A DNA stretch of 33,210 bases. It comes from a virus. Each line of letters opens with the position of its first letter. Position 1 is the first letter of the stretch. The stretch is taken from the IMG/VR virus record IMGVR_UViG_3300007538_000097, positions 1 to 33,210 of that record; one strand, 5' to 3'. The position numbers were made by a program, and so were the translations under genes. Positions 2,544-28,388 of this stretch are shown here, piece by piece. Under the pieces are notes generated by a model. That model did not search any database and had not been told where the DNA came from. It saw only the letters and a program-made list of their open reading frames with translations.

Positions 2544-2975
2544 TTATTTAGGATCTTCCTTTAGTCCGTCCTTTAACATTTTTGCCAGTTCCGCAGTCGA
2601 TCCAACAAATAATGCATTGTTAACTGTTGATGGTCCGCGGACTTGCTTCTCTTCTTCAACATCTTTTAGTTTTTTCTGAAGATCTAAAAGTTTATCTGTT
2701 GCATCTGCGACATTTTTAATTAACTGCCCAGCAACTTCATATGCTCTTGGCATTTCACTTTCTTGTGCAAGTTCAAGAATACCATTGATTGCTTCCTGAC
2801 CCTTTTCTATAAGAGAGTATAAATTACCTCTTGTATAATTATAATCTTTTCTAATATCATCAACAGAATCTTTTATTTTATCAATTTTCTTTTCTACAAC
2901 TTCTGGATGAACAATATCATCTGAAGTGTTGAAAGTTTCATTTAATTCATCAAAACTTTTTGTCATTTTCATCAT
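2544..2975 (-). CDS. gp16: gp16, terminase small subunit (DNA packaging)
   Basis: The protein has 143 residues; T4 gp16 is a little longer at 164. T4-family small terminases regulate the large subunit gp17 and load concatemeric DNA for packaging into proheads. The chain is almost wholly helical, with a central segment (YTRGNLYSLIEKGQEAINGI...AYEVAGQLIKNVADATDKLLDLQKKLKDVEEEK, residues about 46-110) that I recognise as the conserved gp16 core with its coiled-coil pair. The position directly after gp15 matches T4 order. Its start overlaps the gp15 stop as ATGA, so translation is probably coupled. Three methionines (MMKM) make the exact start uncertain by up to three residues, and no strong Shine-Dalgarno is seen. 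Unlike T4, gp17 does not follow immediately; a fibre gene does. Confidence 0.85.
   Translation of the reverse strand: MMKMTKSFDELNETFNTSDDIVHPEVVEKKIDKIKDSVDDIRKDYNYTRGNLYSLIEKGQEAINGILELAQESEMPRAYEVAGQLIKNVADATDKLLDLQKKLKDVEEEKQVRGPSTVNNALFVGSTAELAKMLKDGLKEDPK
2545..2552 (-). promoter_or_regulatory. Late-promoter-like box before the fibre gene
   Basis: The minus strand reads CCTAAATA, close to the T4-type late promoter core TATAAATA. It overlaps the gp16 stop codon and lies 45 bases before the fibre ATG. The same arrangement of a box at the upstream stop codon occurs before gp15, gp13, gp8 and gp25. No transcript data are available, and the motif is short in AT-rich DNA. Confidence 0.4.
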
Positions 2976-3970
2976 AACGAACCACTAAATCCAAAATCAT
3001 CTCCCTCTGGGATAAGAGCATCATCTGCTGCAGTAATAGTGTAAATTGGTTCACCATTAAGGTGATCTGTGATGGTTGTATTATCTGCTCCTCTAACAAC
3101 TGTAAGTTTGTTTCCAGAGATAGACTTGATAAACAACTCTTCTCCATTAAGATCAATATATGTTTTTGCAGTAAGACCACTGGCATCTGCAACTTCAAAG
3201 ATGGTTGTTGTTTTTGATATGTCTTTTGCCAGTGTTGTTACTGGATCTCCAGTATAAGACTTAATTGCTCTTGGTTCTGAAGAGTAAGATACTTCTCTTG
3301 TAGTATTTGTAATATCTGTGCCAGTAAGATAGCTGACAGTAGCCTTTTTGATAATATCTTTGGTAGCACTGCTTGTAGGACCAAACAGATATGTTTTTGC
3401 AGTAAACCTTAAAGTATAAAGAAGAACTCTTCTTTGACTAAAATCTCCTTCATAATCATCCTGCATCGTGATATTTTCTAACACGATTGGAATGTCTCTT
3501 TTTTCTTGAATTGCCTCCACCAGTTCAACGGTTAAGTTATATGCTGGTTGAAAATATGGTAAAATTTGTTCAACAATTTGAAGTGCATCATCATTGAGTT
3601 TACTCATGATGGACAACTCAAACTGCATATTGTATGGAACTGGCATATATGACTTTTTAGACTCAGTTCCGTCGTTTGGATCTTTTACAGTAAAAGTCGA
3701 TGTGGTTGTTACTTTTCTGCTTGGATCATAAGTCAACCCAATAAATTCAAAAGACATTCTGGGTAAAGTAACGGCAAAAGGTTTGTTCAGATCTGGAGAT
3801 TGATTAATTCTTGCCAAAAACTTTTGAGTAGGACCATATGCAAGAGGAACTTTTACAACACTAACAACGTTGTCAGAAGAGTCCTGATGTTTAATTGAAA
3901 TATTATTGAAGAGTGTGCCAAAAGATATAATGGTTCTCCTCAAAATTTCGTTGTAAAAATACTCAAACAT
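2972..3970 (-). CDS. gp15: gp15, tail completion / sheath stabiliser, with C-terminal insert
   Basis: In T4, gp15 forms the terminal ring at the top of the tail, stabilises the sheath and joins the tail to the neck. The N-terminus (MFEYFYNEILRRTIISFGTL) and body (GPTQKFLARI, PRMSFEFIGLTYDPSRK, MPVPYNMQFELSIMSKLNDD, QILPYFQP, ENITMQDDYEGDF...LYTLRFTAKTYLFGP) are clearly cyanophage gp15. The length is 332 residues against 272 in T4. The excess sits near the C-terminus (about residues 243-318). There, ASGLTAKTYIDLNGEELFI, a GNKLTVVRGADNTT stretch and LNGEPIYTI interrupt the usual approach to the final DDFGF motif. That segment resembles modules in the baseplate proteins of this window. The start follows a 40-base gap with a hairpin and late-promoter-like box; the stop overlaps gp16 (ATGA). 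Confidence 0.88.
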   Translation of the reverse strand: MFEYFYNEILRRTIISFGTLFNNISIKHQDSSDNVVSVVKVPLAYGPTQKFLARINQSPDLNKPFAVTLPRMSFEFIGLTYDPSRKVTTTSTFTVKDPNDGTESKKSYMPVPYNMQFELSIMSKLNDDALQIVEQILPYFQPAYNLTVELVEAIQEKRDIPIVLENITMQDDYEGDFSQRRVLLYTLRFTAKTYLFGPTSSATKDIIKKATVSYLTGTDITNTTREVSYSSEPRAIKSYTGDPVTTLAKDISKTTTIFEVADASGLTAKTYIDLNGEELFIKSISGNKLTVVRGADNTTITDHLNGEPIYTITAADDALIPEGDDFGFSGSL

Positions 3971-4007: not shown

Positions 4008-4016
4008 TATTTAGGG
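4008..4016 (-). promoter_or_regulatory. Late-promoter-like box before gp15
   Basis: The minus strand reads CCCTAAATA, overlapping the gp14 stop codon and lying 37 bases before the gp15 ATG. It matches the CTAAATA form of the box found at other gene junctions here. It is assigned by similarity to the T4 late consensus and by recurrence, not by transcript data. Confidence 0.4.
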
Positions 4017-5465
4017 CATACCGAATGGGTTCTGTTCAGAGAAGTCTATAATTGCATCTGCTTCCGTTTCAATATTAATATTATCTGCAAATCCGTCATC
4101 TGCAGGATTAACATCAATCGTTCTTAATGCATACGATGCCCCAGATGTAGATCCAACAATGTTTTCTCCAACAGCAAATTCTCCAGATACGGTTGCAACT
4201 TCCAGAACACTGGTCGTAGAGTTCCAAACTCTAACTCTTGCGGTTGTTCCACTAGAAGATCCTGTTACAATTTCGTTGAACTGGAAAGTTCCAGATCCAG
4301 AACTTAATGGATTCGCAACAACAACTGTTGGTGCTACAGAGTATCCTGCACCAGTATTTGTCAAATAGATTGCAGAGATTGTTCCTGCAGTACTAACAAC
4401 TGCAGTTGCAGCAGCTGAAACTGTTGTAACTCCACTTTCAAATATTTCATTTGTAAATGTAATTGTTGGTGTTACGGTGTATCCTCCACCACCGGAGGTA
4501 ATTGTAATGATACCAACAACACCATCCCCAATAGTTGCTGTTGCTGCTGCACCTGCTCCACCTTCTCCTCCACCAATAAATCTAACACCGGGTGCAGAAG
4601 TATATCCAGATCCAGAAAGAGCTACATTAACTGCTTGAACTGATTGTAAACGTGGATTTGCATTAAGATTGCATACATTAATTCCACCAATCATGGTAGC
4701 AATACCGATGGCAGTCGTTCCACCTGTAGGTGCAGAGGAGACTCCAACTGTAGGAACACTACTGTATCCACCTCCTCTATTAGTAACAGTAAAGAATCTA
4801 ACACCACCATCAAAGATAGCTGCCGTAGCAGTTGCGGTCACTCCAGAACCAACAAGAGTAAGAGTTTGTGTTTGTCCCTGAATGCTGTTTATTCCATCTG
4901 CAGAAAGTCCATCATAATCACCATCCTCTCCTACAAGATTATTATCGATGTCTAAAACTCCAGTTGCAATAACCTCATCTTCAAGACGGAAGAGTTCGCA
5001 AGAAAGTTCATATACATAAAGACTTTGAAGTTGATAATATGGTCTTGCCCTCTCAACATCTTTTATTTCATAGATTCTATCATCCAGAGGAAACCAGATA
5101 AGATCCCCACCTTTTGGTCTAGTTGATAATTTTATGTTTGATTGATCTTCAATCAGAGGAGTTATATAATTTTCAAATCTCTCTTTTGATATTGTGAGTC
5201 TTATTTCTTCATTTACTTGAACACCGAATTTTGATAATAAAGCACCTGCTCCCTCATATTGATCAAAATTGTTGACATATGCCTCAAGAGGTAATGCCAT
5301 ATCAAATTTTGATTGCACTACCTCTCTTATAACGGTATTTTCTGTTAAATATTTTCTGGGAAGGTAAAAAACCTCAACACCATACATTCTCAGTTGTTCA
5401 TTAATTAAATCCTGAACAAGATTTTGCTCACCTTTTGTACCCTGAGTAAAAAATGGATTTAGCAT
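4011..5465 (-). CDS. gp14: gp14, neck protein, with large Gly-rich beta insert
   Basis: gp14 with gp13 forms the neck that joins head to tail after packaging. The first 160 residues are typical cyanophage gp14: MLNPFFTQGTKGEQNLVQDL, EVFYLPRKY, VNNFDQYEGAGALLSKFG, RPKGGDLIWFPLDDRIYEIK, PYYQLQSLYVYELSCELFRL. The C-terminus (INIETEADAIIDFSEQNPFG) is also typical. The length is 484 residues against 256 in T4. The difference lies at about 190-455: Ala/Gly/Thr/Val-rich repeats with GGGYSSVPTV, GSGYTSAPGV, GGGYTVTPTI and GAGYSVAPTV. Two 'GE.V.GS.SG' units (FQFNEIVTGSSSG and FAVGENIVGSTSG) follow. The same repeat types occur in the gp8 and giant baseplate proteins here. It starts four bases after the gp13 stop, with AGG in the last gp13 codons as a possible weak ribosome binding site. 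Confidence 0.88.
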   Translation of the reverse strand: MLNPFFTQGTKGEQNLVQDLINEQLRMYGVEVFYLPRKYLTENTVIREVVQSKFDMALPLEAYVNNFDQYEGAGALLSKFGVQVNEEIRLTISKERFENYITPLIEDQSNIKLSTRPKGGDLIWFPLDDRIYEIKDVERARPYYQLQSLYVYELSCELFRLEDEVIATGVLDIDNNLVGEDGDYDGLSADGINSIQGQTQTLTLVGSGVTATATAAIFDGGVRFFTVTNRGGGYSSVPTVGVSSAPTGGTTAIGIATMIGGINVCNLNANPRLQSVQAVNVALSGSGYTSAPGVRFIGGGEGGAGAAATATIGDGVVGIITITSGGGGYTVTPTITFTNEIFESGVTTVSAAATAVVSTAGTISAIYLTNTGAGYSVAPTVVVANPLSSGSGTFQFNEIVTGSSSGTTARVRVWNSTTSVLEVATVSGEFAVGENIVGSTSGASYALRTIDVNPADDGFADNINIETEADAIIDFSEQNPFGMP

Positions 5466-16241: not shown

Positions 16242-19200
16242 TTAAAGGATATAATTTTTAAACTTCAAGAAATTGGATCTAATTATCATTGTTGATGTAG
16301 AAATACCAGTTCCTTCAGAAATACCAATTCCAGATTGAGTATATGCTGTATACGAATTCAATCCAGATCTTGCTGTTAAATCAATTCTTCCCCAACTAAA
16401 TGTTCCAAAATAATCTGACGTTGTTATTCCAGAGAATCCGTATGTAAAGTTATCAACTTTAACAAACAATCTTCTTACATAAGTTGTTATTCCAGATACA
16501 CTGGTAGATATGGACTCTGCACTTGCAACTTCATAAACATTGTCAGCAAAAGAAGTTCCAACACCAACTGTATTGTCAGAGGAATCAAGTGAAGTTACTG
16601 AAGTGGAACCGAGACCAACGTTAGAATTTTTAATGATGAAATAATCATTTGCACTAATAGAACTAATCGTCAAAGCAGTTCCTGCAACAGTTGAATTTCT
16701 TAAGAATGAATCATATGGAATATGTACATCAAATATCAATTGAGTTCCGATACCGACCGTTGTAGTGCCAAATCCAACAACAACTCCATTTTCACCAGCA
16801 TAAGTGTTCACACTCACTTCTTCCTCTACATGAGTAGGAGGTGCAATCAGAACTGGTGGTGGATTTGTATTTGTATATCCAGTACCAGCATTTGATAGAG
16901 TGATTGTTGTAACTATGCCAGCAGTAATGGAAGAAACTCCAACTGCTGTTGTTCCCAATCCAACTGCCTGCAAAGTACTACCAATCGTAACGGTTGGTGC
17001 TGTAATGTATCCAGAACCACCATCGGATATAGAAATAGATGAAATAGTTCCAAATCCAGAAACAATTGCAGTTGCAGCTGCGGATGTCTTAGATTCTTGG
17101 GTTATAAACTTAACTTTCTTCTGGAAAGTTAAATCTGTATCATTTTCATTCTGTGAATTAAATATTGGTCTCAAAGTATCAACATATATTGTTGTTGATC
17201 CTATTCCGACAGACTTGATAATGTATGCAGATGGGTTAATAACTGGTTCATAAAGTTCTCTGTCTTTTCCAACAGCAATCTGGTCGATGAACTTATCTTC
17301 GGTTTGTCGGCACCAAATGACTGGTCTTTCTAATGTCACATCTGTAACATTACCTGGACCTTCATATGGATTTGTTCCAACAATGTTGGTAGATTTGACC
17401 TGATCTACAATCCTTTCATCTTCAGTGAGAGATGATGCTTGTCCAATAGATGGATCATTTACAATCTGCAAGGTGTCACCAACTTTGACAGTTTCAATTA
17501 CATTTCTAAAGACGACATCAGCATCACCACTTCCTTTGTAGAAGAGAATGTTTACAGAATCACCAACCCTCAAAGCTTCGGTGAAAGTAATAATACTTCC
17601 ACCATTAAATGTATATCCATCTCCAGGAACTTGCAATATATCATTAACAAATACAAGTAAAACATCCTGAACATTAATCTTAGAACCTTTTGCTGCTACA
17701 ATAGAAACTTGAGTTCCTGATTGTAGTAATGGGAAGTCTTTTCTTTCTCCATCAATATACTCACCAATATTATCAAATGCTTGTAAGGTTCCTATAGACC
17801 ATCCATTAAATTCATCATTATATATTTCATCGATGGTTATTTGGAATTCATTTCCAGAATAAGATGATGTTGTTGGAATTCCAGTTGTTCCACCAATAGC
17901 AACTGTAAGTATTTCACCATTTCCATAGGCATATCCAGTGTTTTTAATTTCAAAACCAATGACGCTGGAACCTTGACCGACAACTATATCTATGGTTGCC
18001 TCGGTTCCAAATCCAGTAACAGAGTCGGAACTATATTGCAGTGCTATATCAGAATAACTAAGTGGAGCATCAAAGAAGACATATGGTTGATTTGTTGAGG
18101 TGTATCCAGAACCGGGATTTGTAATAGCAACACTGACAATGTGACCACCACTAATAGCAGCAGTTCCAATAAACTCTAAGTTTGAAACTCCAGTACTTGA
18201 AGTTCCAACACCAACATTTACTACAGTTTGAACACCGACTCGATAACCAGATCCACTGTTACCAATACTGATAGATTGAATTGTTCCGAGACCAGAAATA
18301 ATTGCAGTTCCACCAGCAGAAACTAATGGTTGATATCCAAATCCTTCTGTAGATCCAACGGAAACAATAACTCCACCTCTAGGATAACTGGAAATGCCAA
18401 CATCAGGACCTAATGGTGTTGTATTAGTTCCTTGGAAGGTAATTGAAGTTATTCCAGAAGATTCACTTAAAACGTATTGATCCGAAATACCAGGTGCTTG
18501 GAAAATATCATTAATCAGAATGATTGCATTTTCAGTAGAAATTCCTGTTACATCAGATAAATTTTGTTTCAGAGTAAACTCACTCTTAGTTGCATTAAAC
18601 TGATCAGAAATATCGTCAAAGATATAATTTCTATAATAAGACTCATTAGAACTATTTGTAATACCAGATCTAATAAATGTTCTTCCTTGGAAACTAGATG
18701 ATGTAGTAATTCCAGTCCAATCTCTTTCGTCTGGTGGATTTGTTGTACTTCCAATAGGAGTATTTCCATATGGAGCTTCGGTGAAGTTTAAGTGGTTATC
18801 TACAATGTTGTAATTACCAACAATTTTTGTAACCAGATCTCCAGTAGAAGCTGTTCCAATCTTTGTTCCCAACCAAGGTCTACGAACTCTTATCGCATTT
18901 GTGCTGCCAATACCAATACCTTCAATTTTCATAATCTCGTCACCAATCTTAATCAAGTCAGATCCAAAGAATGATGTAATACCACTAAAGTATACAATAT
19001 TGTCCAGAGTAGTTAATTGATCTGACAGAGATGTTGTGACTGCAGTAGAAACAATTGGTGATTGAATAATGTTGTCTAAAGCAACAATAACTTTTGCATT
19101 TTGATTTGTTGCAATAAATCTATGAGAAGTTCCAATACCAACACTTTCGAGGTCAACAACTTCTGGAATAGATTTGAGTGCATTTTCAGCACTGGTTGCA

Positions 19201-22200
19201 ATCTTGATATTGTTATCATCAACCTTTACTGCATAAAGATTTTCACCAGGTAAGAATGTTGTATTAGATGCACCGACAAAACTGGTTGTTGCAATTCCAA
19301 TGGCAGAATCTGTGTTACCAACATGGTTGTATCTGATCTTCTCTCCACTTACAAAGAAGTGGTTTGGTATCTTAATCGTGTTAGTCGTAACATCAACAAT
19401 AGAATTATCATTTGCTTCAAAATATCTTTCAAAGATTTGCAGATTTTCGTGTTTAAGTTCAAATTCTCTCTTAACGTCAGATTCTGTTCCGGTATAATCT
19501 CCAAACCCACTGTTAATAGATCCATTTGTAAAATCTATTTCATTTGATAAAGTAACATCTTCATTGATAGACAGTGCATTCATGTATACATTTACTACGG
19601 TATCAATACTTGCATTAGGAGTAAATACGAGAGAGACTGTTCCAGCAGCAGATACTCTTGAACCAAAAGTTCCTAATCCAGAAACAGTTTCTACAATACC
19701 AAACTCAGTTTGGTATGTTTCATAACTACTTAATGCATCAACATAATCATCAACAACAACAATCTCAGACATTTGGAATCTGGTGTTTGTTGTATCTGCA
19801 ACTTGTACTATAAAGTATGCCGCATCATAATTGTTTGGATATTCTGCAATAGTGTTGATTCCAGGAGATCCAGAAGAAGTTATACTTGTAGTTTTTGCTT
19901 CAATTCTTGATCTAGTGAGATCAACAGTTCCAATACCAGTGAAGGTATCACTTGCAAGTCCAACTTGAATTGTATTAATAACTCCAGTTGTTGCGATACC
20001 AACTGCTGTTGGAATAAAATCAACATTGAGAGAATCTCCACTAAAATATGCATGATATGTTCCAAGACCAGTTGCAGAGTATTCACCAAGATTTGTTGTC
20101 AGTCTTCCATATTCCAGAAGTTCAATATTTGCACCATCATGAACAATATTGAGTTCTATTGCCTCATATTCTTCATTTCTAGTGGTGTCTGGATTAATAG
20201 CAACTAAAATTTTAGCAGTAGTAAATGTATTTGCGATAGAAACAATCGTAGTGGTAACGCCAGAAGTTACTGGAGAACTTGCTGAGTCAATAAGTGCAAT
20301 TCCACCCAGAGATGTTGTTCCAATGCCTAAGAAAACATCATTTAGATTGTATGATAATAAACTTACATCATAATCATTTACAGTGTATCTTGTTGGATAG
20401 AACTGAAGTTGCCCATTAGTGCCTGAAATAGCAAAATCAAAAGATCCCTGATCATAGGCAGTTTCAATTCTTCCATATTGATTTAAATATCCGAAAGATC
20501 CATCATGCAGCAAGTCAACAAGGAGTAACTGTCTTTGTGCAGTGTATCTCTTGTCTCTTACATACGTAATATACTTTTGGAAAGTAATATCAGACAAACT
20601 AAAAGTATTGACAATACTAAATGGAGTAGATCTTGGGTTACTATTAAACTGACCTCCAAGATCATCAATGGAAAGAACTCTATTTCCTACAGACTCAAAA
20701 TAATCAGTTAAAACTCTATTTGAAAAAATAATTTCGTTAGAAACGACTTTTGAGTTTTGATTCAGATTATTTTCCGTAACCAGATCAAAGTCATATACAC
20801 AATGCAAACTTGCAAATCCATCAAGATTATAAACAGAATCCAGATTGGTAGTATTTGTAGTAAGACCTACAATCATACTATTGCTATTTTGAGTTTCTAA
20901 TTGATAATCTGAAAACTTTTTAAATCCTAAGGTGTGGTTCAAACTCGCAACAGTTTCATTCCAAGTATCGTAAGGAATTTCTGATTTAAGAGAATATGAG
21001 AAGTTTTGATAGTAGAAACTATCTTGAATCTTTTGAAGTTCAAAGTTAAGACGACCAGAATCCTCTTGCCATCCTGTTATTACTTTTGATATTGGATTGA
21101 GACTTACATAAGATTCAAAAGATTTAATGGATGATGCAATTCCCTGCAACTTAGAGGTTGATCCTTCTATGATATCTCCAACAACAAAAGAGTCATCGGA
21201 TGAGACAGTTAGGGTGGTAATCTTTGCATCCCAATCATCAACAATTCCAGTTGCATTATCAGAAACTACAATTTCTCCTTTTACATAATTTCTTACACTT
21301 AAAGTAGATTCAAAAATTGGGAAGTGTTTTTCCGCAAGTATTTTACCCGATGAGTTTACCGCATCAAACTGACCTGGAAACTCTCCATTTTCAAACAATC
21401 CAGACATGCTATATGAAACACTTCCAATACCACCAAGATTTTCAGTGACTGCCGTTACAGTAAATCTATTATAACCATACTCTGCTGAATTATACCCCTT
21501 TCCAGTAGACCCAACACCAACACTGACATTTTCAACCAGGACTTTATCCCCAACTGCAAATGGGAAGGAGTTTTGAGTGCTGAATCCAACGGATAAGGTT
21601 GCTGTTGCAACTTCAGTTAAAGAATCAAATGTAATTGTATTAATTCCAACTCCAGCACCACTTCTTGTAGGAATAATTACTGGAGAAACATTACTCATCC
21701 CCTTAGTATTCTCTAATATTTCAACATTATTGCTTCCAAGAGTTACTTTCAGTGCAACGTCAGAAACTACTTCTCCGGTTTTTCCATCAAGAACAACTAA
21801 TGTTGGTGGAACAGAAAATCCTCTACCAAAAGAGGTGATTCCAACACTTTCAAAAGATGCGAGAGAATCAATCTTTATTACTTGTGGTAAAAGAATTGTT
21901 GGATCTAAAGTTGGATCGGAGGGGAAAGTATATCCAATATCTTTCAATCTCATTTTTTTGAGAGATCCAACACTGGAACTCTTAGATTCTAAAATAGCAC
22001 CAGATCCAGAGGAAGTAGTTACTGTTGTTATTCCTGGAAGTGAATAATAGTTTTTACCTGGATTGATAATATTAACACTTGCTATTGGACCATAAGTGTG
22101 AGTACAATCTGTTTCATAAGATATGATAGAAGTGCTACCATATGAGGATTCTTCTGGAACATCTTTTATGCTATAGGTGAATGCATTTGTTGCACCAACA

Positions 22201-25200
22201 CTTATTGTGTGTTTTCCATTGTATACACTCTCCAATACTTCTAGTTTAGAACCAGATACCACTTCATTATCTGATAAAATTTCAGATTTAACTGTTGGAA
22301 GATCACTCTCATAAATTGGGGTTAGTTTGTAATATAAAGATCTTGGAATATTTCCATTGACTGTCAAAGTTGCGGTAGCACCAGATGTTCCTACTTTTCC
22401 AAATCTCGTTAATTCGAAGACATTACTGTCTTTTGATTTATCCCATTCTTTGGTAAATTTTTCATCTGTGTATAATTCAAACTCAAAAGCAGAGTACGTT
22501 GTTCCTTGTTTTACATAAGAAAGTGACCCATCAGATAAATCAAACGTTACTGTTGAATTCTTGTAAAGTTTAATCTGTGGATTTACTGGATTAATAGTTC
22601 CATACGATGCACTTGTTATTCCTACAACATCTGGTTTAGGTTTGACAGAATCGTAATAGGTGTTCGATAGTTTGATAGTATTGTCATCAACTCTAACAAT
22701 ATAGTACATACTATCACTGGAGAGTCCAACTGAAGATGAATCAGATGTGTGTATAATCTTATCTCCAGTCTTAAATCCGTGAGATGCAATTGTTATTTCA
22801 TTTGTAGTTGTATTAACCCCTGCAGTAACAAATCCAACTGGATTGACAACTAACCTTCTATTAAAATCGTTATATTTTAATGTTAATGTTTTTGCATTTT
22901 GTGGATTAACATTTACAAAAACATTATGAAGTGGGCTAAGTCCATGAGTTTCTGCGGTTGATACAGTAACTAAGTTTCTCTTTACTGTGCCAGTAATAAC
23001 ATCATAGTTTGTTGTAAAACTATGCGTATCCCCCGATCCAACAGTTCTAAATGCTAAAGTCGTTGAAGATCTATGAGTACTTGCAATACCGACAAAAGTT
23101 CCTGTTGTACCCAAACCAACTCTGACAGTAGCAATACCGATCAAATCTTCATCAATTTTGGCAACAAATAAAGTTTGCCCATCAGAGAGTGTAGTGCCGA
23201 CACCTACGTTTGTTTCGTCTTGTACTATTATTCCACTCCCACCAGTTCCTGAAGAATATGTGAGTTGATCTCCAGTTCTCAGGTTGTGATTTCTAATAAA
23301 AATAGTTTTTGTTGGAATAAACTTTTGAGTCAATCCAGCACCTGGATTTGAGAAAGTAATAGTTGTACCAATACCCACACCAGAAGTTGTTCCAAGACCA
23401 ACAGACTCTGAAGGGTCAAAGTAGATTTGTTTGTTTAATCTGTAAGAATAATCTGTCTTAAATCCGGCATTTATTTTTATTTTTCTCGAATCTTCATACA
23501 CAAATTTTCCTATTGTATGAGAAGATCCTGTTGATCCATCTACCTCTCTAAGGACTCTGATTCTTGATGACAATGGATCTACATTTAGGACCTTGATCCT
23601 TTCAGTTCCAACTTGGAGAATATCATTTTCTCTAATATTTGGATAAGACAAGTCTCCAGTAACTCTAAAATAAGTTACTATTCCAGTTGTTGCTGTATCT
23701 CCAATAGCAACTCCTGTTGTTCCAACCCCAGCTATTGTCAATCTATTAGTTTGGATTCCTGCAGAATAAAATCCCTCAATGTTAGATGAAGTTGTCGATA
23801 GTCCAGAAATTGATATTGTATCCAGATTGATAAAGTTGTGGGGATTATCTGCAAATAGTAAATATTCTCCTGCAGATTCTCCTGGATAGAATTCAACATT
23901 GTTAATAGTGCTGGAAGCAACACTAATGCTACTTACAGATCTTCCTTTCAGTCTACCAACCTTTGCATATACACTATCACCTTTAGTTCCTTCATTGTCG
24001 AATACCAGAGTTTCTCCAACTCTATATCCACTACCACCAGTAACAATACCAATACTTTCAATCGTTCCTGGAGAAACTGCAGTTATTGTTGCGGTTTGCT
24101 TTAACTCATTTGGGATATAAAGATATTCATATTGAGAATCACCCTCTATAAGATTATGAGGTTGTGTATTTCTACGCCAACCACTACTAATATCAAATGA
24201 CTCTAAATTGGAGTCTGGAGTAAAGTTAAACTGATCTGGAACTCCCTTATAATTTTGTCCAACAATATATGGGAATACTGGTTTACGATATTTTTCAAAA
24301 ACTCCAGACGTTTCCGAAAACTTATCATTGATGGTTGTAAAATATGCATATGTACCATTTGGAAACTCTGGTGTTATACAGAATCTACCATTGTTCTCAT
24401 CAAGCACTGTATCATCAGAAACTTTTCTGTGAGTGTAATCTTCAATAAAAAATCCTTCTGGGAAAATTGATGTTGGTGGTCTATTTTCTTTAATATCTAA
24501 AGAATAACCAGATTTCATTTGTGAAATTACTCCACCATCCTTATTTCTAAATCCATATGGACCATAGATTGGATGTCCATCATAAGCAAATCCTAAAATT
24601 GGAGAATGCTTTCTTGAAGATTCTTCAATTCCATTGACTCTTCTTAAATCCTTTTCTCCATATAAAACATTGCCTGATTGATCTGATGCATAGACAATTT
24701 CTCTAAGTTTTCTGGGAGCATACAAGTGAGAATACTGCAATCCAAAATCATTAGATTTTAATCCATTAACAACAACACCATCATCAGAAGCAAAATATGG
24801 GTAATATTTTTCAAACAGATTAACTCTCCAAGATTGGATGTTTGCTTTAAACTCTGGAAGAATGCGAATAGATCCTGCTGGAATTACATCAATAGTTGTG
24901 CTATTTTGATCATATCCTGCACCAGGTTCTATTACTTTAACTGAAGTTACTGATTCGTTTTCTAAAACTGGTGTAAGAACTGCTCCAACACCACTGCCAT
25001 TGATTCTAAGGTCTGGAGTTGAAAGATATCTACTTCCAGTTTTTAGAACAATAACCTGAGCTATTTTACCATTAACAATAATTGGTTTTAGTTGACACTC
25101 TGATCCAGAATCGATTGATATTTTTGGATGCCTATCAAGATTAAGAACTTCTGAAGATCCATATCCAACTCCATTATTCTCAAGATGAATAGAAGTTACA

Positions 25201-28200
25201 GTTCCTCTGACAATCGGTTGTAAGGATCCCTTGAACGTCTCCAGTCCAATAGAGGATATACCAACATTACCTAAAACGGATACAGTGATTTCTGGATAGT
25301 TAAAGATATGAGTTCCAACCCCAACAGAGGTCATATTAACATATTGTCTGGTTCTATAATAAAACTCTCTATCAGAAGAAACTCCGACCTGAGATAATTT
25401 AAAAGAGTCTTTATCTATTCTTGTTACATAATATTCTGTATCTGTAGTAAGACCAGAAACGGGAGTTCCATTGCAGGTATATTTTACTTTTTCTCCAGAC
25501 TTATAATCATGGTTAGATAATACAACCAAGTTTGATGCTGTATTGATTCCAGTCGATGCTGCAGTGGTTCTTTTCTTATTTTCATATCCAATTCCAGATC
25601 TAGTAATATTAACAGATTGGATTACAGACTTCTTACTTTCAGATTGTAAAGAGTGCTTACCGATACCATAGTCGGTCAAGAATACGGTATTAATTCCTGA
25701 AATTGCATCACCTTCGGTTTTGTGAAGACGAACTGTAATGTTGTCAAGAACAGAAACATAATAAGAAGAATTTGTAACTATTCCACTAATGCCATCTTGA
25801 AGTTTAGTTCTGTATATTACTTTTTCTGCGTTTCTAAACTTGTGATAAGTTGAAAAACCAATTCTTGATTGAGTTGATGCTGTGCCAACAATAATATTAG
25901 CAGAAACTGCATCTGCGAAAAACTCTACCTCATGATTGATCAACTTCATGTTGATCTGTCCAATGGCTCCTGTGCCATTTCCACCTTCAATCTTTAACGT
26001 AGGAGTTCCAATAAAATCAAATCCAGGATCAACAACTCTTATCTCTTTGAATGATCCTGAAACTGCAAGATATCCAGTTGCTCCAGTTCCTACAGCATCA
26101 TTGATTATTAAGTTTGGAACATTAATAACATCGATGTTAGTTCCGGGAGAGAGAACGTCAATACTATTAATTTTTCCGTATTTAATAATATCTTTTGACT
26201 TGTAATTAAGAATCTCTACACCATTGACCAAGATACCCGTAAATCCTGGTTTTGTTTCGGAGGTGGTTTCGTTGATTAATGGAGTGGATAATTTTCTAAG
26301 AAGTTTTTGAGGACCTAATGATTTACCTTTAAACTCAAATGGTCTTATAGTACTGTTAGCAACTGTAACTACATTATCTACGGAAACAAACTTTGAGTTG
26401 TAAATATCATCTCTACTTCTTGAAAACTTTAAAGTAGAAGAATTTACTCTCTTAACAAAATATAGACCATCAGCAAACAGACCGGTGTCTCTTACTTGTC
26501 TGGTGGAACTATTACCAGAATCATCAATGTATGTTTCATTAATTAATTGTGCTTCATAATAAACAGCATCTCCTGTATAAAATCCATGCTCTACACCAGG
26601 AGATATTTCAAACTCATCTCCAACAAATGTTCCTGAAAAAGAAAATACTCTTGGTGAAACGTTCGTTGGTTCAGAATCATAATGTGGTATTGATGGAGAA
26701 GAAATCAGATAATCCCCATTTTCATTTTTATATACATTGTTAACATCAGTGGAATATATTACTGCAGAAGGAAAAGTTGTTGAGGATACTTTTTGAATAT
26801 TTCTTTGGATTTTATATGTTTGATTTGTATTTAATACACCTTGTCCCCTTATTTCAAAAGTTTTTTCTCCAGATATTGATACAATTTTGGTTTGTACTTT
26901 AGTTCCATTGGAGAGAATAATATTTGCAAAATCTCCAGATCTAAACTGATTTGCCACGTTTACAGTGACTTTGTAAGTGTTGTTTGAAGAATCTATTAGT
27001 TCAATTTTGCTGACTTTATACGTTGGTGCAACATTATACAACCACTTATTTGTTTTGAAATTATTTTCATTTACTCCAAGCGTTGTTACATTAACTATGC
27101 CATTATTTCTCAGATTATTTGTATTCTTTGGAAGACGTAAATCTCCCAAAACAGAATTTATTCTTACCTCAATAATCTCATCTTGATCTAAATTAGATCT
27201 TCCATAAGCAAAGGTATTAACTCCAACAACAGATCCATCAGATATGCCCAAATTTAAATTGCTAACACCATAAAATTGAGTTAGAGATTTTGAAGTATAA
27301 GATACTACACCAACACTGTTGTTTGAATAGTTAAAATAAAGTTCTCCTGTTGTTCCAAATCCAACAGTTGAATCGACATCAAGAACTGTAGATCCAGCAG
27401 CAACTTGACCAATTACTCTTGTCGTTGGATTTGCTCTGAACTGACCATAAACAGATCCGTCTACTCTAATGTCTTTATCATATCCACCATCAATACTGAG
27501 TTTATAATAGGTCTTTCCATACCCAACAGATATTTTTTCAACATCTGTAATTGGAGCATATGCTTTTCTTATATTTGTTCCAAACTTATATTCATCTTGA
27601 TATAAAGTAGCATTCTTTAAATTTTCTGGATCTCCTTGAATTGCCTCTACTACTAATTGATTTACAATTTGATATTGAGCATTTGATGGAGTGAACAGAA
27701 AATCTTTTGGTTTTACAATCTTTACTTCTTTATTATAAAGTGCTTTGAATAATATTTCAAAAGAAATATCTGTACCCTTGCTCAGATAAAAGTCTTTTGC
27801 CTGCTTTATAAAAAGATTTTGATTGAGATCTGAAGTTAGTTGCTTGTTTTGCAATCCAGGCAAAACTTGATGTTTTGTTTTAAGTAAAAACTGCTTTAAG
27901 AATAAGCAACTTAAATTGGTAATCGTTGACTGATCCTTGTGATCATCCGATTCAGTTTCTTTAAAAACTACTTCTTCTTTATTAATTTCACTTCTATATG
28001 AAGTTATTCCAACAAATCCTCTAATACATCCAGTGAAGGAAAAATCAGTTTTTCCTGTATAAGTTATTACTTCATCATTTATTTTTAAAAGACCATAAGA
28101 GTTTGGAAATCCTATGGTTCCACTTGGAGACTCTGTAGGATCCACAGGAATCGTTGTTGCATCAAAATCAAGATCTCCTTTCAATACAACAGATTCTGTG

Positions 28201-28388
28201 AGATTTGTTGTGTTATCTAACTTAATATAACGATCAATATTCTGAATTAAGTCAACAGGTCCACCTTGATACTCTTGTCCAAGATAATACTGCTTTAAAA
28301 CTTCTGCTATTAGTGGGAAGTCCTCCCTTACAAATGTAGGAAGTTGATTTGCTACAATAGTATTAAACTGAACTCTGGTTTCTGTCAT
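16242..28388 (-). CDS. Giant YHYH-domain baseplate protein (4048 aa), gp7 position
   Basis: This lies between gp6 and gp8, exactly where T4 encodes wedge protein gp7 (1032 aa), so I infer a gp7-like or wedge-associated role. The N-terminal 330 residues are non-repetitive and cyanophage-typical (LPTFVREDFPLIAEVLKQYY, LSCLFLKQFLLKTKHQVLPG, KDFYLSKGTDISFEILFKAL, QGDPENLKNATLYQDEYKFG). A YHYH domain occupies about 1262-1385: LGFAYDGHPIYGPYG, then NNGRFCITPEFPNGTYAYF. Surrounding it are at least seven 'H.F..GD.V.Y...YYV..VDD..IKLS' modules, about a dozen GxGYxxxP repeats, and many VG(I/V/L)GTT hexapeptides. Near 2606-2941 three tandem HDG/EYG-type domains resemble the fibre C-terminus. No signal peptide or membrane segment is visible. 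The frame is uninterrupted. The ATG is 18 bases after the gp6 stop. Long-fibre or extended baseplate appendage is an alternative. Confidence 0.88.
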   Translation of the reverse strand: MTETRVQFNTIVANQLPTFVREDFPLIAEVLKQYYLGQEYQGGPVDLIQNIDRYIKLDNTTNLTESVVLKGDLDFDATTIPVDPTESPSGTIGFPNSYGLLKINDEVITYTGKTDFSFTGCIRGFVGITSYRSEINKEEVVFKETESDDHKDQSTITNLSCLFLKQFLLKTKHQVLPGLQNKQLTSDLNQNLFIKQAKDFYLSKGTDISFEILFKALYNKEVKIVKPKDFLFTPSNAQYQIVNQLVVEAIQGDPENLKNATLYQDEYKFGTNIRKAYAPITDVEKISVGYGKTYYKLSIDGGYDKDIRVDGSVYGQFRANPTTRVIGQVAAGSTVLDVDSTVGFGTTGELYFNYSNNSVGVVSYTSKSLTQFYGVSNLNLGISDGSVVGVNTFAYGRSNLDQDEIIEVRINSVLGDLRLPKNTNNLRNNGIVNVTTLGVNENNFKTNKWLYNVAPTYKVSKIELIDSSNNTYKVTVNVANQFRSGDFANIILSNGTKVQTKIVSISGEKTFEIRGQGVLNTNQTYKIQRNIQKVSSTTFPSAVIYSTDVNNVYKNENGDYLISSPSIPHYDSEPTNVSPRVFSFSGTFVGDEFEISPGVEHGFYTGDAVYYEAQLINETYIDDSGNSSTRQVRDTGLFADGLYFVKRVNSSTLKFSRSRDDIYNSKFVSVDNVVTVANSTIRPFEFKGKSLGPQKLLRKLSTPLINETTSETKPGFTGILVNGVEILNYKSKDIIKYGKINSIDVLSPGTNIDVINVPNLIINDAVGTGATGYLAVSGSFKEIRVVDPGFDFIGTPTLKIEGGNGTGAIGQINMKLINHEVEFFADAVSANIIVGTASTQSRIGFSTYHKFRNAEKVIYRTKLQDGISGIVTNSSYYVSVLDNITVRLHKTEGDAISGINTVFLTDYGIGKHSLQSESKKSVIQSVNITRSGIGYENKKRTTAASTGINTASNLVVLSNHDYKSGEKVKYTCNGTPVSGLTTDTEYYVTRIDKDSFKLSQVGVSSDREFYYRTRQYVNMTSVGVGTHIFNYPEITVSVLGNVGISSIGLETFKGSLQPIVRGTVTSIHLENNGVGYGSSEVLNLDRHPKISIDSGSECQLKPIIVNGKIAQVIVLKTGSRYLSTPDLRINGSGVGAVLTPVLENESVTSVKVIEPGAGYDQNSTTIDVIPAGSIRILPEFKANIQSWRVNLFEKYYPYFASDDGVVVNGLKSNDFGLQYSHLYAPRKLREIVYASDQSGNVLYGEKDLRRVNGIEESSRKHSPILGFAYDGHPIYGPYGFRNKDGGVISQMKSGYSLDIKENRPPTSIFPEGFFIEDYTHRKVSDDTVLDENNGRFCITPEFPNGTYAYFTTINDKFSETSGVFEKYRKPVFPYIVGQNYKGVPDQFNFTPDSNLESFDISSGWRRNTQPHNLIEGDSQYEYLYIPNELKQTATITAVSPGTIESIGIVTGGSGYRVGETLVFDNEGTKGDSVYAKVGRLKGRSVSSISVASSTINNVEFYPGESAGEYLLFADNPHNFINLDTISISGLSTTSSNIEGFYSAGIQTNRLTIAGVGTTGVAIGDTATTGIVTYFRVTGDLSYPNIRENDILQVGTERIKVLNVDPLSSRIRVLREVDGSTGSSHTIGKFVYEDSRKIKINAGFKTDYSYRLNKQIYFDPSESVGLGTTSGVGIGTTITFSNPGAGLTQKFIPTKTIFIRNHNLRTGDQLTYSSGTGGSGIIVQDETNVGVGTTLSDGQTLFVAKIDEDLIGIATVRVGLGTTGTFVGIASTHRSSTTLAFRTVGSGDTHSFTTNYDVITGTVKRNLVTVSTAETHGLSPLHNVFVNVNPQNAKTLTLKYNDFNRRLVVNPVGFVTAGVNTTTNEITIASHGFKTGDKIIHTSDSSSVGLSSDSMYYIVRVDDNTIKLSNTYYDSVKPKPDVVGITSASYGTINPVNPQIKLYKNSTVTFDLSDGSLSYVKQGTTYSAFEFELYTDEKFTKEWDKSKDSNVFELTRFGKVGTSGATATLTVNGNIPRSLYYKLTPIYESDLPTVKSEILSDNEVVSGSKLEVLESVYNGKHTISVGATNAFTYSIKDVPEESSYGSTSIISYETDCTHTYGPIASVNIINPGKNYYSLPGITTVTTSSGSGAILESKSSSVGSLKKMRLKDIGYTFPSDPTLDPTILLPQVIKIDSLASFESVGITSFGRGFSVPPTLVVLDGKTGEVVSDVALKVTLGSNNVEILENTKGMSNVSPVIIPTRSGAGVGINTITFDSLTEVATATLSVGFSTQNSFPFAVGDKVLVENVSVGVGSTGKGYNSAEYGYNRFTVTAVTENLGGIGSVSYSMSGLFENGEFPGQFDAVNSSGKILAEKHFPIFESTLSVRNYVKGEIVVSDNATGIVDDWDAKITTLTVSSDDSFVVGDIIEGSTSKLQGIASSIKSFESYVSLNPISKVITGWQEDSGRLNFELQKIQDSFYYQNFSYSLKSEIPYDTWNETVASLNHTLGFKKFSDYQLETQNSNSMIVGLTTNTTNLDSVYNLDGFASLHCVYDFDLVTENNLNQNSKVVSNEIIFSNRVLTDYFESVGNRVLSIDDLGGQFNSNPRSTPFSIVNTFSLSDITFQKYITYVRDKRYTAQRQLLLVDLLHDGSFGYLNQYGRIETAYDQGSFDFAISGTNGQLQFYPTRYTVNDYDVSLLSYNLNDVFLGIGTTSLGGIALIDSASSPVTSGVTTTIVSIANTFTTAKILVAINPDTTRNEEYEAIELNIVHDGANIELLEYGRLTTNLGEYSATGLGTYHAYFSGDSLNVDFIPTAVGIATTGVINTIQVGLASDTFTGIGTVDLTRSRIEAKTTSITSSGSPGINTIAEYPNNYDAAYFIVQVADTTNTRFQMSEIVVVDDYVDALSSYETYQTEFGIVETVSGLGTFGSRVSAAGTVSLVFTPNASIDTVVNVYMNALSINEDVTLSNEIDFTNGSINSGFGDYTGTESDVKREFELKHENLQIFERYFEANDNSIVDVTTNTIKIPNHFFVSGEKIRYNHVGNTDSAIGIATTSFVGASNTTFLPGENLYAVKVDDNNIKIATSAENALKSIPEVVDLESVGIGTSHRFIATNQNAKVIVALDNIIQSPIVSTAVTTSLSDQLTTLDNIVYFSGITSFFGSDLIKIGDEIMKIEGIGIGSTNAIRVRRPWLGTKIGTASTGDLVTKIVGNYNIVDNHLNFTEAPYGNTPIGSTTNPPDERDWTGITTSSSFQGRTFIRSGITNSSNESYYRNYIFDDISDQFNATKSEFTLKQNLSDVTGISTENAIILINDIFQAPGISDQYVLSESSGITSITFQGTNTTPLGPDVGISSYPRGGVIVSVGSTEGFGYQPLVSAGGTAIISGLGTIQSISIGNSGSGYRVGVQTVVNVGVGTSSTGVSNLEFIGTAAISGGHIVSVAITNPGSGYTSTNQPYVFFDAPLSYSDIALQYSSDSVTGFGTEATIDIVVGQGSSVIGFEIKNTGYAYGNGEILTVAIGGTTGIPTTSSYSGNEFQITIDEIYNDEFNGWSIGTLQAFDNIGEYIDGERKDFPLLQSGTQVSIVAAKGSKINVQDVLLVFVNDILQVPGDGYTFNGGSIITFTEALRVGDSVNILFYKGSGDADVVFRNVIETVKVGDTLQIVNDPSIGQASSLTEDERIVDQVKSTNIVGTNPYEGPGNVTDVTLERPVIWCRQTEDKFIDQIAVGKDRELYEPVINPSAYIIKSVGIGSTTIYVDTLRPIFNSQNENDTDLTFQKKVKFITQESKTSAAATAIVSGFGTISSISISDGGSGYITAPTVTIGSTLQAVGLGTTAVGVSSITAGIVTTITLSNAGTGYTNTNPPPVLIAPPTHVEEEVSVNTYAGENGVVVGFGTTTVGIGTQLIFDVHIPYDSFLRNSTVAGTALTISSISANDYFIIKNSNVGLGSTSVTSLDSSDNTVGVGTSFADNVYEVASAESISTSVSGITTYVRRLFVKVDNFTYGFSGITTSDYFGTFSWGRIDLTARSGLNSYTAYTQSGIGISEGTGISTSTMIIRSNFLKFKNYIL
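19570..20565 (-). repeat. Three tandem HDG/EYG-type domains inside the giant protein
   Basis: At the protein level three diverged copies lie at nucleotides about 20345-20565, 19990-20230 and 19570-19835. Shared landmarks are a variable strand (AQRQLLLVDLLHDG; YEAIELNIVHDGANIELLEYG; MSEIVVVDDYVDALSSYETY, then QTEFG), a G-T-Y/F turn, and a closing strand of LxVxFxPxA type. The fibre protein at 622-877 ends in a related single copy (NIIHDGSDTYMTEYGTI). Identity is low, so the repeat rests on ordered motifs judged by eye. Confidence 0.55.
24235..24605 (-). other. YHYH domain within the giant baseplate protein
   Basis: The region encodes LGFAYDGHPIYGPYG, a long connecting segment, DDTVLDENNGRFCITPEFPN, GTYAYF, and then PVFPYIVGQ. 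This order matches the YHYH family signature (G-[FY]-A-[YF]-D-G-x-P-[IV]-[YF]-G-P...NGRF..TPE.P.GTYAYF). The family occurs in secreted bacterial proteins and in cyanophage virion proteins; its biochemical activity is not known to me. It is the only clearly compact, non-repetitive domain in the middle of the protein. Confidence 0.75.

Follow-up and report, generated by a model that had tools for sequence, protein, structure and literature searches.

The window (the whole stretch of DNA that was analysed, 33,210 nucleotides) is a fragment of a T4-like cyanophage, in which gp15 sits in the gene order gp13-gp14-gp15-gp16, with the adaptor Ad2, the head closure protein Hc2 and the small terminase as neighbours. 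The gp15 product is assigned by profile searches to Pfam family T4-gp15_tss (residues 4-245, E 1.3e-85) and to PHROG 227 (E 3.7e-96), and its nearest named relative is that of phage S-SM2 (Kyanoviridae), with 78% identity over the full length. The gene, its parts and the adjacent neck gene, together with the evidence for each, are as follows.

2972..3970, minus strand: gp15, tail terminator / tail sheath stabiliser, 332 aa (Pfam T4-gp15_tss, PHROG 227, AlphaFold core against T4 gp15)
3275..3970, minus strand: conserved gp15 core, residues 1-232 (alignment of 80 gp15s; AlphaFold model against T4 gp15)
3245..3274, minus strand: upstream linker PRAIKSYTGD, residues 233-242 (matches the first half of an EF-hand-like loop in module-free gp15s)
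3035..3244, minus strand: predicted beta-barrel module, residues 243-312 (AlphaFold pLDDT, module HMM, fold matches)
3002..3034, minus strand: downstream linker TAADDALIPEG, residues 313-323 (matches the second half of the EF-hand-like loop; short predicted helix)
2987..3001, minus strand: conserved DDFGF motif, residues 324-328 (alignment of 80 gp15s)
4011..5465, minus strand: gp14 neck protein, 484 aa (Pfam T4_neck-protein over residues 1-198; PHROG 460)

By sequence search, T4 gp15 (272 aa) aligns to residues 1-208 of the window protein (E 2.8e-28). The core of the AlphaFold model has the same fold as T4 gp15 (PDB 4huh and 4hud; Z 16 over about 165 residues), and model residues 2-198 superpose on T4 residues 3-201. 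T4 gp15 has neither the module nor the DDFGF arm, the compared 4hud chain covering 211 of its 272 residues. A sequence-only reading of the window had pointed out that gp15 is 60 residues longer than its T4 counterpart, which is correct (332 versus 272 aa), and had drawn attention to a GEELFI...GNKLTVVRGADNTT...LNGEPIYTI segment ahead of DDFGF, which is present as quoted. The discrete module that it placed at 3015-3245, i.e. residues 242-319, was also recovered, with boundaries refined to residues 243-312. Within the terminal motif, D324, F326, G327 and F328 are invariant among the 80 aligned sequences.

Structure prediction confirmed the segment between core and DDFGF, about 70 residues in length, as a putative independently folding domain. 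In the full-length AlphaFold model, blocks of residues 241-310 have pLDDT values of 93-97, and the module folded alone gives mostly 94-98; the predicted structure is a small six-stranded beta-barrel. One glutamate, one valine and one arginine are invariant among 48 gp15 modules. Among relatives of the window gp15, dN/dS is about 0.27 for the module versus about 0.11 for the core, values that are rough because dS averages near 1. As judged from these ratios, the module is under purifying selection and evolving faster than the core.

The closest relatives of the barrel are found in phage virions. A profile of the module matched the minor tail protein of phage Chi at E 2.5e-7 and the K64-1 capsule depolymerase 9k4a at E 1e-3, and virion and tail families of PHROG were matched with a best E-value of 6e-10. 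The Pfam family K1-lyase_Rider was weakly matched by 10 of the 48 gp15 modules (best E 3.3e-4); the window's own module had no Pfam hit. An Ig-like identity was considered and dropped, as the window's module had no Ig-like Pfam match and the 25 of 34 families listed for the 48 modules did not include one. The seven best fold matches among solved structures, with Z 8.5-10.9, all come from phage virions: VP1 capsid (9in6; Z 10.9), JBD30 baseplate (8rk3; 10.2), Chi tail tip (8vjh; 10.0) and Mystique tail tube (9n71; 9.8), each of which shares the fold over nearly the whole module, followed by GP4 portal-tail (9.4), LKA1 tailspike (9.1) and K1 lyase (8.5). The N-terminal barrels of F1-ATPase rank below them, at Z 7-7.7, which makes some of the fold signal generic. 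From profile and model comparisons, the module is best described as a putative rider-type barrel, a domain that recurs on a wide range of phage virion proteins. The copies in the Chi, JBD30, Mystique and VP1 proteins and in PHROG 4406 and 1101 differ from that of gp15 in the protein that carries them and in their place on the virion.

The best characterized of these relatives is the rider of the Klebsiella phage K1 lyase (PF24149; PDB 7w1d, 7w1c), which like the gp15 module is a small barrel-like domain set into a loop of a virion protein that forms oligomers. The two folds superpose with Z 8.5 and an rmsd of 1.9 A over 69 residues, a match that is unspecific in that other phage domains score higher and F1-ATPase barrels reach 7 or more. 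The rider belongs to a trimeric tailspike enzyme, whereas the carrier of the gp15 module is a hexameric tail terminator, with the module in its C-terminal arm. A second parallel is offered by the additional domains of phage tail sheaths, which are likewise optional beta-rich additions to a conserved tail core, away from the tube contact; unlike the gp15 module, the domains in that survey belong to gp18-type sheath proteins and mostly have Ig-like folds (PMC9230969).

The module is widespread in cyanophages. When the C-terminal part of gp15 was used as a tblastn query against 50,697 phage records, the module was found in the gp15 of about 58, including S-SM2, Bellamy, P-TIM68, S-CAM9, P-SSM4, P-RSM1, Syn30, Syn19, P-HM1 and S-SSM7, and numerous other cyanophage gp15 records lack it. 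In S-SM2, P-TIM68, P-SSM4, P-HM1, Syn19, S-CAM9 and S-SSM7 (Kyanoviridae and relatives), module, site and flanks are as in the window, with sequence divergence as the only difference. The earlier statement that the core of cyanophage gp15s leads straight to DDFGF is true of S-RIM2, S-CAM7, ACG-2014f, S-T4 and S-SRM01 and fails as a general rule, given the many isolates with the module. Retrieved database entries for module-bearing gp15s are named gp15 or tail sheath stabiliser and do not mention the domain; no prior account of a barrel domain in gp15 was found in the literature searched, mostly open-access journals.

Our gp15 collection comprises 647 complete ORFs taken from named phages and IMG/VR, reduced to 102 representatives; it was gathered by chosen queries, so its proportions are no census. 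Lengths in the 647 ORFs are bimodal with no true intermediates, and D[DN]FG[FL] occurs near the C-terminus in 644 of them. The two length classes and the near-universal DDFGF-type motif show that the extra segment is no product of chance. Seventeen representatives are short, 23 have a linker loop without the module and 59 have the module; three distant gp15s stand outside these classes. The reading frame is open and the module is present in each of the 34 representatives of the window's clade, and on these grounds a frameshift, a stop codon or an assembly artefact was rejected as the origin of the segment. An insertion special to the window phage was also rejected, by the refuting condition set in the sequence-only reading, since the same module is found at the same site in these 34 representatives and in many isolates. 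The module is thus an old and optional part of cyanophage gp15 that is kept, lost or swapped by lineage, a modest variation on known biology and no oddity of this phage.

One set of gp15s without the module has its two flanks fused into an EF-hand-like loop, for example DYNDDGVVNATDD in DSL-LC02 and DKNNDGVIDSADD in S-PM2. We compared these loops with the 13-position EF-hand pattern of PROSITE (PS00018). Positions 1-12 were matched by 20 of the 23 loop-type gp15s and position 13 by none. A true EF-hand or dockerin was rejected on the failure of position 13 in all 23 and on the Pfam results for S-PM2 and DSL-LC02, in which T4-gp15_tss was the only family found, with no EF-hand or dockerin. In module carriers the module lies between two half-loops; aspartate occupies position 1 in 48 of 59 (serine in the window), and the aspartate of the C-terminal half-loop is kept in 59 of 59. 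We conjecture that the loop may bind calcium. On a wider reading, which we regard as distinctly unlikely, the C-terminal arm of cyanophage gp15 would serve the head-tail joint as an EF-hand-like hinge that binds calcium, with the loop either closed or, in other lineages, split by a rider-type barrel at whose base the half-loops still pair. If this were the case, sea-water calcium would help to secure the joint, and lineages would replace the bare hinge by one that bears a barrel.

The history of the site was traced on an unrooted core tree of 99 rows, from which the module columns had been excluded. Presence of the module requires seven changes on this tree, five of which are imposed by branches with good support, and all three states of the site together require nine; module carriers form one group in none of 200 bootstrap core trees. 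Because the tree is unrooted, it does not distinguish gain from loss. The clades of the core tree reappear in the module tree at the lowest possible number of changes, six, and identities of module and core are correlated (Mantel r 0.71; as high in 0 of 2000 permutations). When compared with modules from other proteins, 51 of the 59 gp15 modules form one supported group (95/93), while those of the P-SSM4 lineage fall outside it; a single clade of all gp15 modules is not rejected by the topology test (p-AU 0.44). Most gp15 copies therefore probably descend from a single old acquisition in cyanophage gp15, and the simplest reading of the trees, although unproven, would be one old acquisition followed by several losses and some exchange. 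By these sequence comparisons, the gp15 that we designate L214 is a clear case of module swap: its core is 85.5% identical to that of P-SSM4 and its module only 33%, whereas compared with P-RSM6 the values are 63% and 61%, as expected of a P-SSM4-like core with a P-RSM6-like module.

Such repeated loss or gain of an optional segment at an apparently flexible arm, together with its swapping between lineages, would be expected if the module were a nearly neutral passenger that is exchanged by recombination and tolerated by assembly. The dN/dS of about 0.27, the invariant glutamate, valine and arginine, and the retention of the module in 34 of 34 representatives of the window's clade argue against a passenger, and we consider this explanation very improbable.

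The window itself contains further copies of the module, both in a 4048-aa baseplate-wedge-like protein (16242-28388; PHROG 2885).

18813..19043, minus strand: second module copy, in the 4048-aa baseplate-wedge-like protein (module HMM, i-Evalue 5e-07)
23496..23642, minus strand: weaker third module copy, in the same protein (module HMM, i-Evalue 0.0012)

Near its C-terminus the 4048-aa protein also has a stretch matching the gp14 family PHROG 460. Elsewhere, two tandem module copies were detected in the tail sheath protein gp18 of P-TIM40 (L666:952-3183), and a fibre of S-SM2 is among the predicted viral proteins with the module fold. The gp14 of metaG-MbCM1 is listed in BFVD as a fold match; a search of the fetched gp14s with the module HMM gave no significant hit. 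The C-terminal arm of gp14 carries a separate, lineage-variable beta insert with GG.GY repeats, as seen in an alignment of the window gene (4011-5465), L081 and L180 with L164, L176 and L178. In S-RIM2 and ACG-2014d, both without the gp15 module, gp14 is about 80 aa longer than in their module-bearing relatives Syn19, Syn30 and P-SSM4. The idea that gp15 and gp14 trade decorations reciprocally was nevertheless rejected: over the set as a whole, the length of gp14 does not vary with the state of gp15, so such a trade can have been one event at most. The gp14 of S-SSM7 (L175:176-2464; 762 aa) has a LamG-like segment just below the Pfam cut-off (E 7.6e-6), and genes for HNH or homing endonucleases lie amid the neck genes of S-SRM01 and MA10 (L165:1947-2474, L181:751-1404).

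What the module does may be approached through two precedents. In T4, the C-terminal arm of gp14 binds gp15 residues 203-245 on tail docking (PMC12270204). The rider of K1 lyase is inserted in a loop and packs on the neighbouring subunit, its quadruple mutant loses thermal stability, and its loops help to line the glycan site (PMC8822698). The gp15 module sits in the C-terminal arm of the tail terminator, just past the stretch matching the gp14-binding region of T4 and before DDFGF. In the hexamer, six copies would be arranged around the periphery of the head-tail joint. There it may act mainly as a rider-like clamp that packs on an adjacent gp15 or gp14 subunit and stabilises the joint, possibly with weak glycan binding as a side role. 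This proposal is drawn from the T4 contact between the gp14 arm and gp15 203-245, the gp14 insert and the K1 lyase precedent. We give a clamp at the joint about an even chance of being the module's role, which makes it the likeliest one, with adhesion second. The full reading, i.e. a rider-type barrel, mostly from one old acquisition, serving as a peripheral clamp with a possible weak glycan-binding side role, seems to us slightly better than even. The many cyanophages without the module show that gp15 function does not generally depend on it.

The faster evolution of the module relative to the core suits a surface that meets something variable better than it suits a clamp. Together with swapping between lineages, the abundance of module relatives in tail fibres and tailspikes and the contribution of the K1 lyase rider to a carbohydrate site, it would fit a role as a weak adhesin, in which the barrel on the virion surface attaches to glycans of the cyanobacterial envelope or of particles and thereby helps to keep the phage close to its host. 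We consider this role rather unlikely: the module is on the neck, distant from the baseplate, no conserved surface site was identified on it, and a carbohydrate module in the neck fibre of phage A-1(L) did not bind its host (PMC10966104). Another conceivable role is that of an anchor for a neck appendage, either replacing the fibritin (wac) of T4 or holding folded-back tail fibres. An older cryo-EM study of T4 set the fibritin loop against gp15 (PMC3004832), and the adjacent gp14 is likewise heavily decorated; newer work has assigned fibritin binding to domain III of gp13 (PMC12270204). No partner gene is known to track the module, and its presence and absence alternate among close relatives with similar local gene order; both points speak against an anchor, and we regard this role as highly doubtful. 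The clamp at the head-tail joint remains our preferred reading.

The module of gp15 is a genuine and well formed surface domain of known type, evolutionarily labile and widespread in cyanophages. Its occurrence means that the tail terminator, a core assembly ring, also carries an exchangeable surface module, at a single optional site that has three states across cyanophages: no insert, an EF-like loop, or a loop split by the barrel. The same barrel in neck, baseplate and sheath suggests that cyanophages draw on a shared pool of virion surface domains. Natural pairs with and without the module, such as Syn19 and S-RIM2, respectively, would be useful for testing neck decorations, and these pairs, together with the loop-or-barrel site itself, are the most useful part of the finding.
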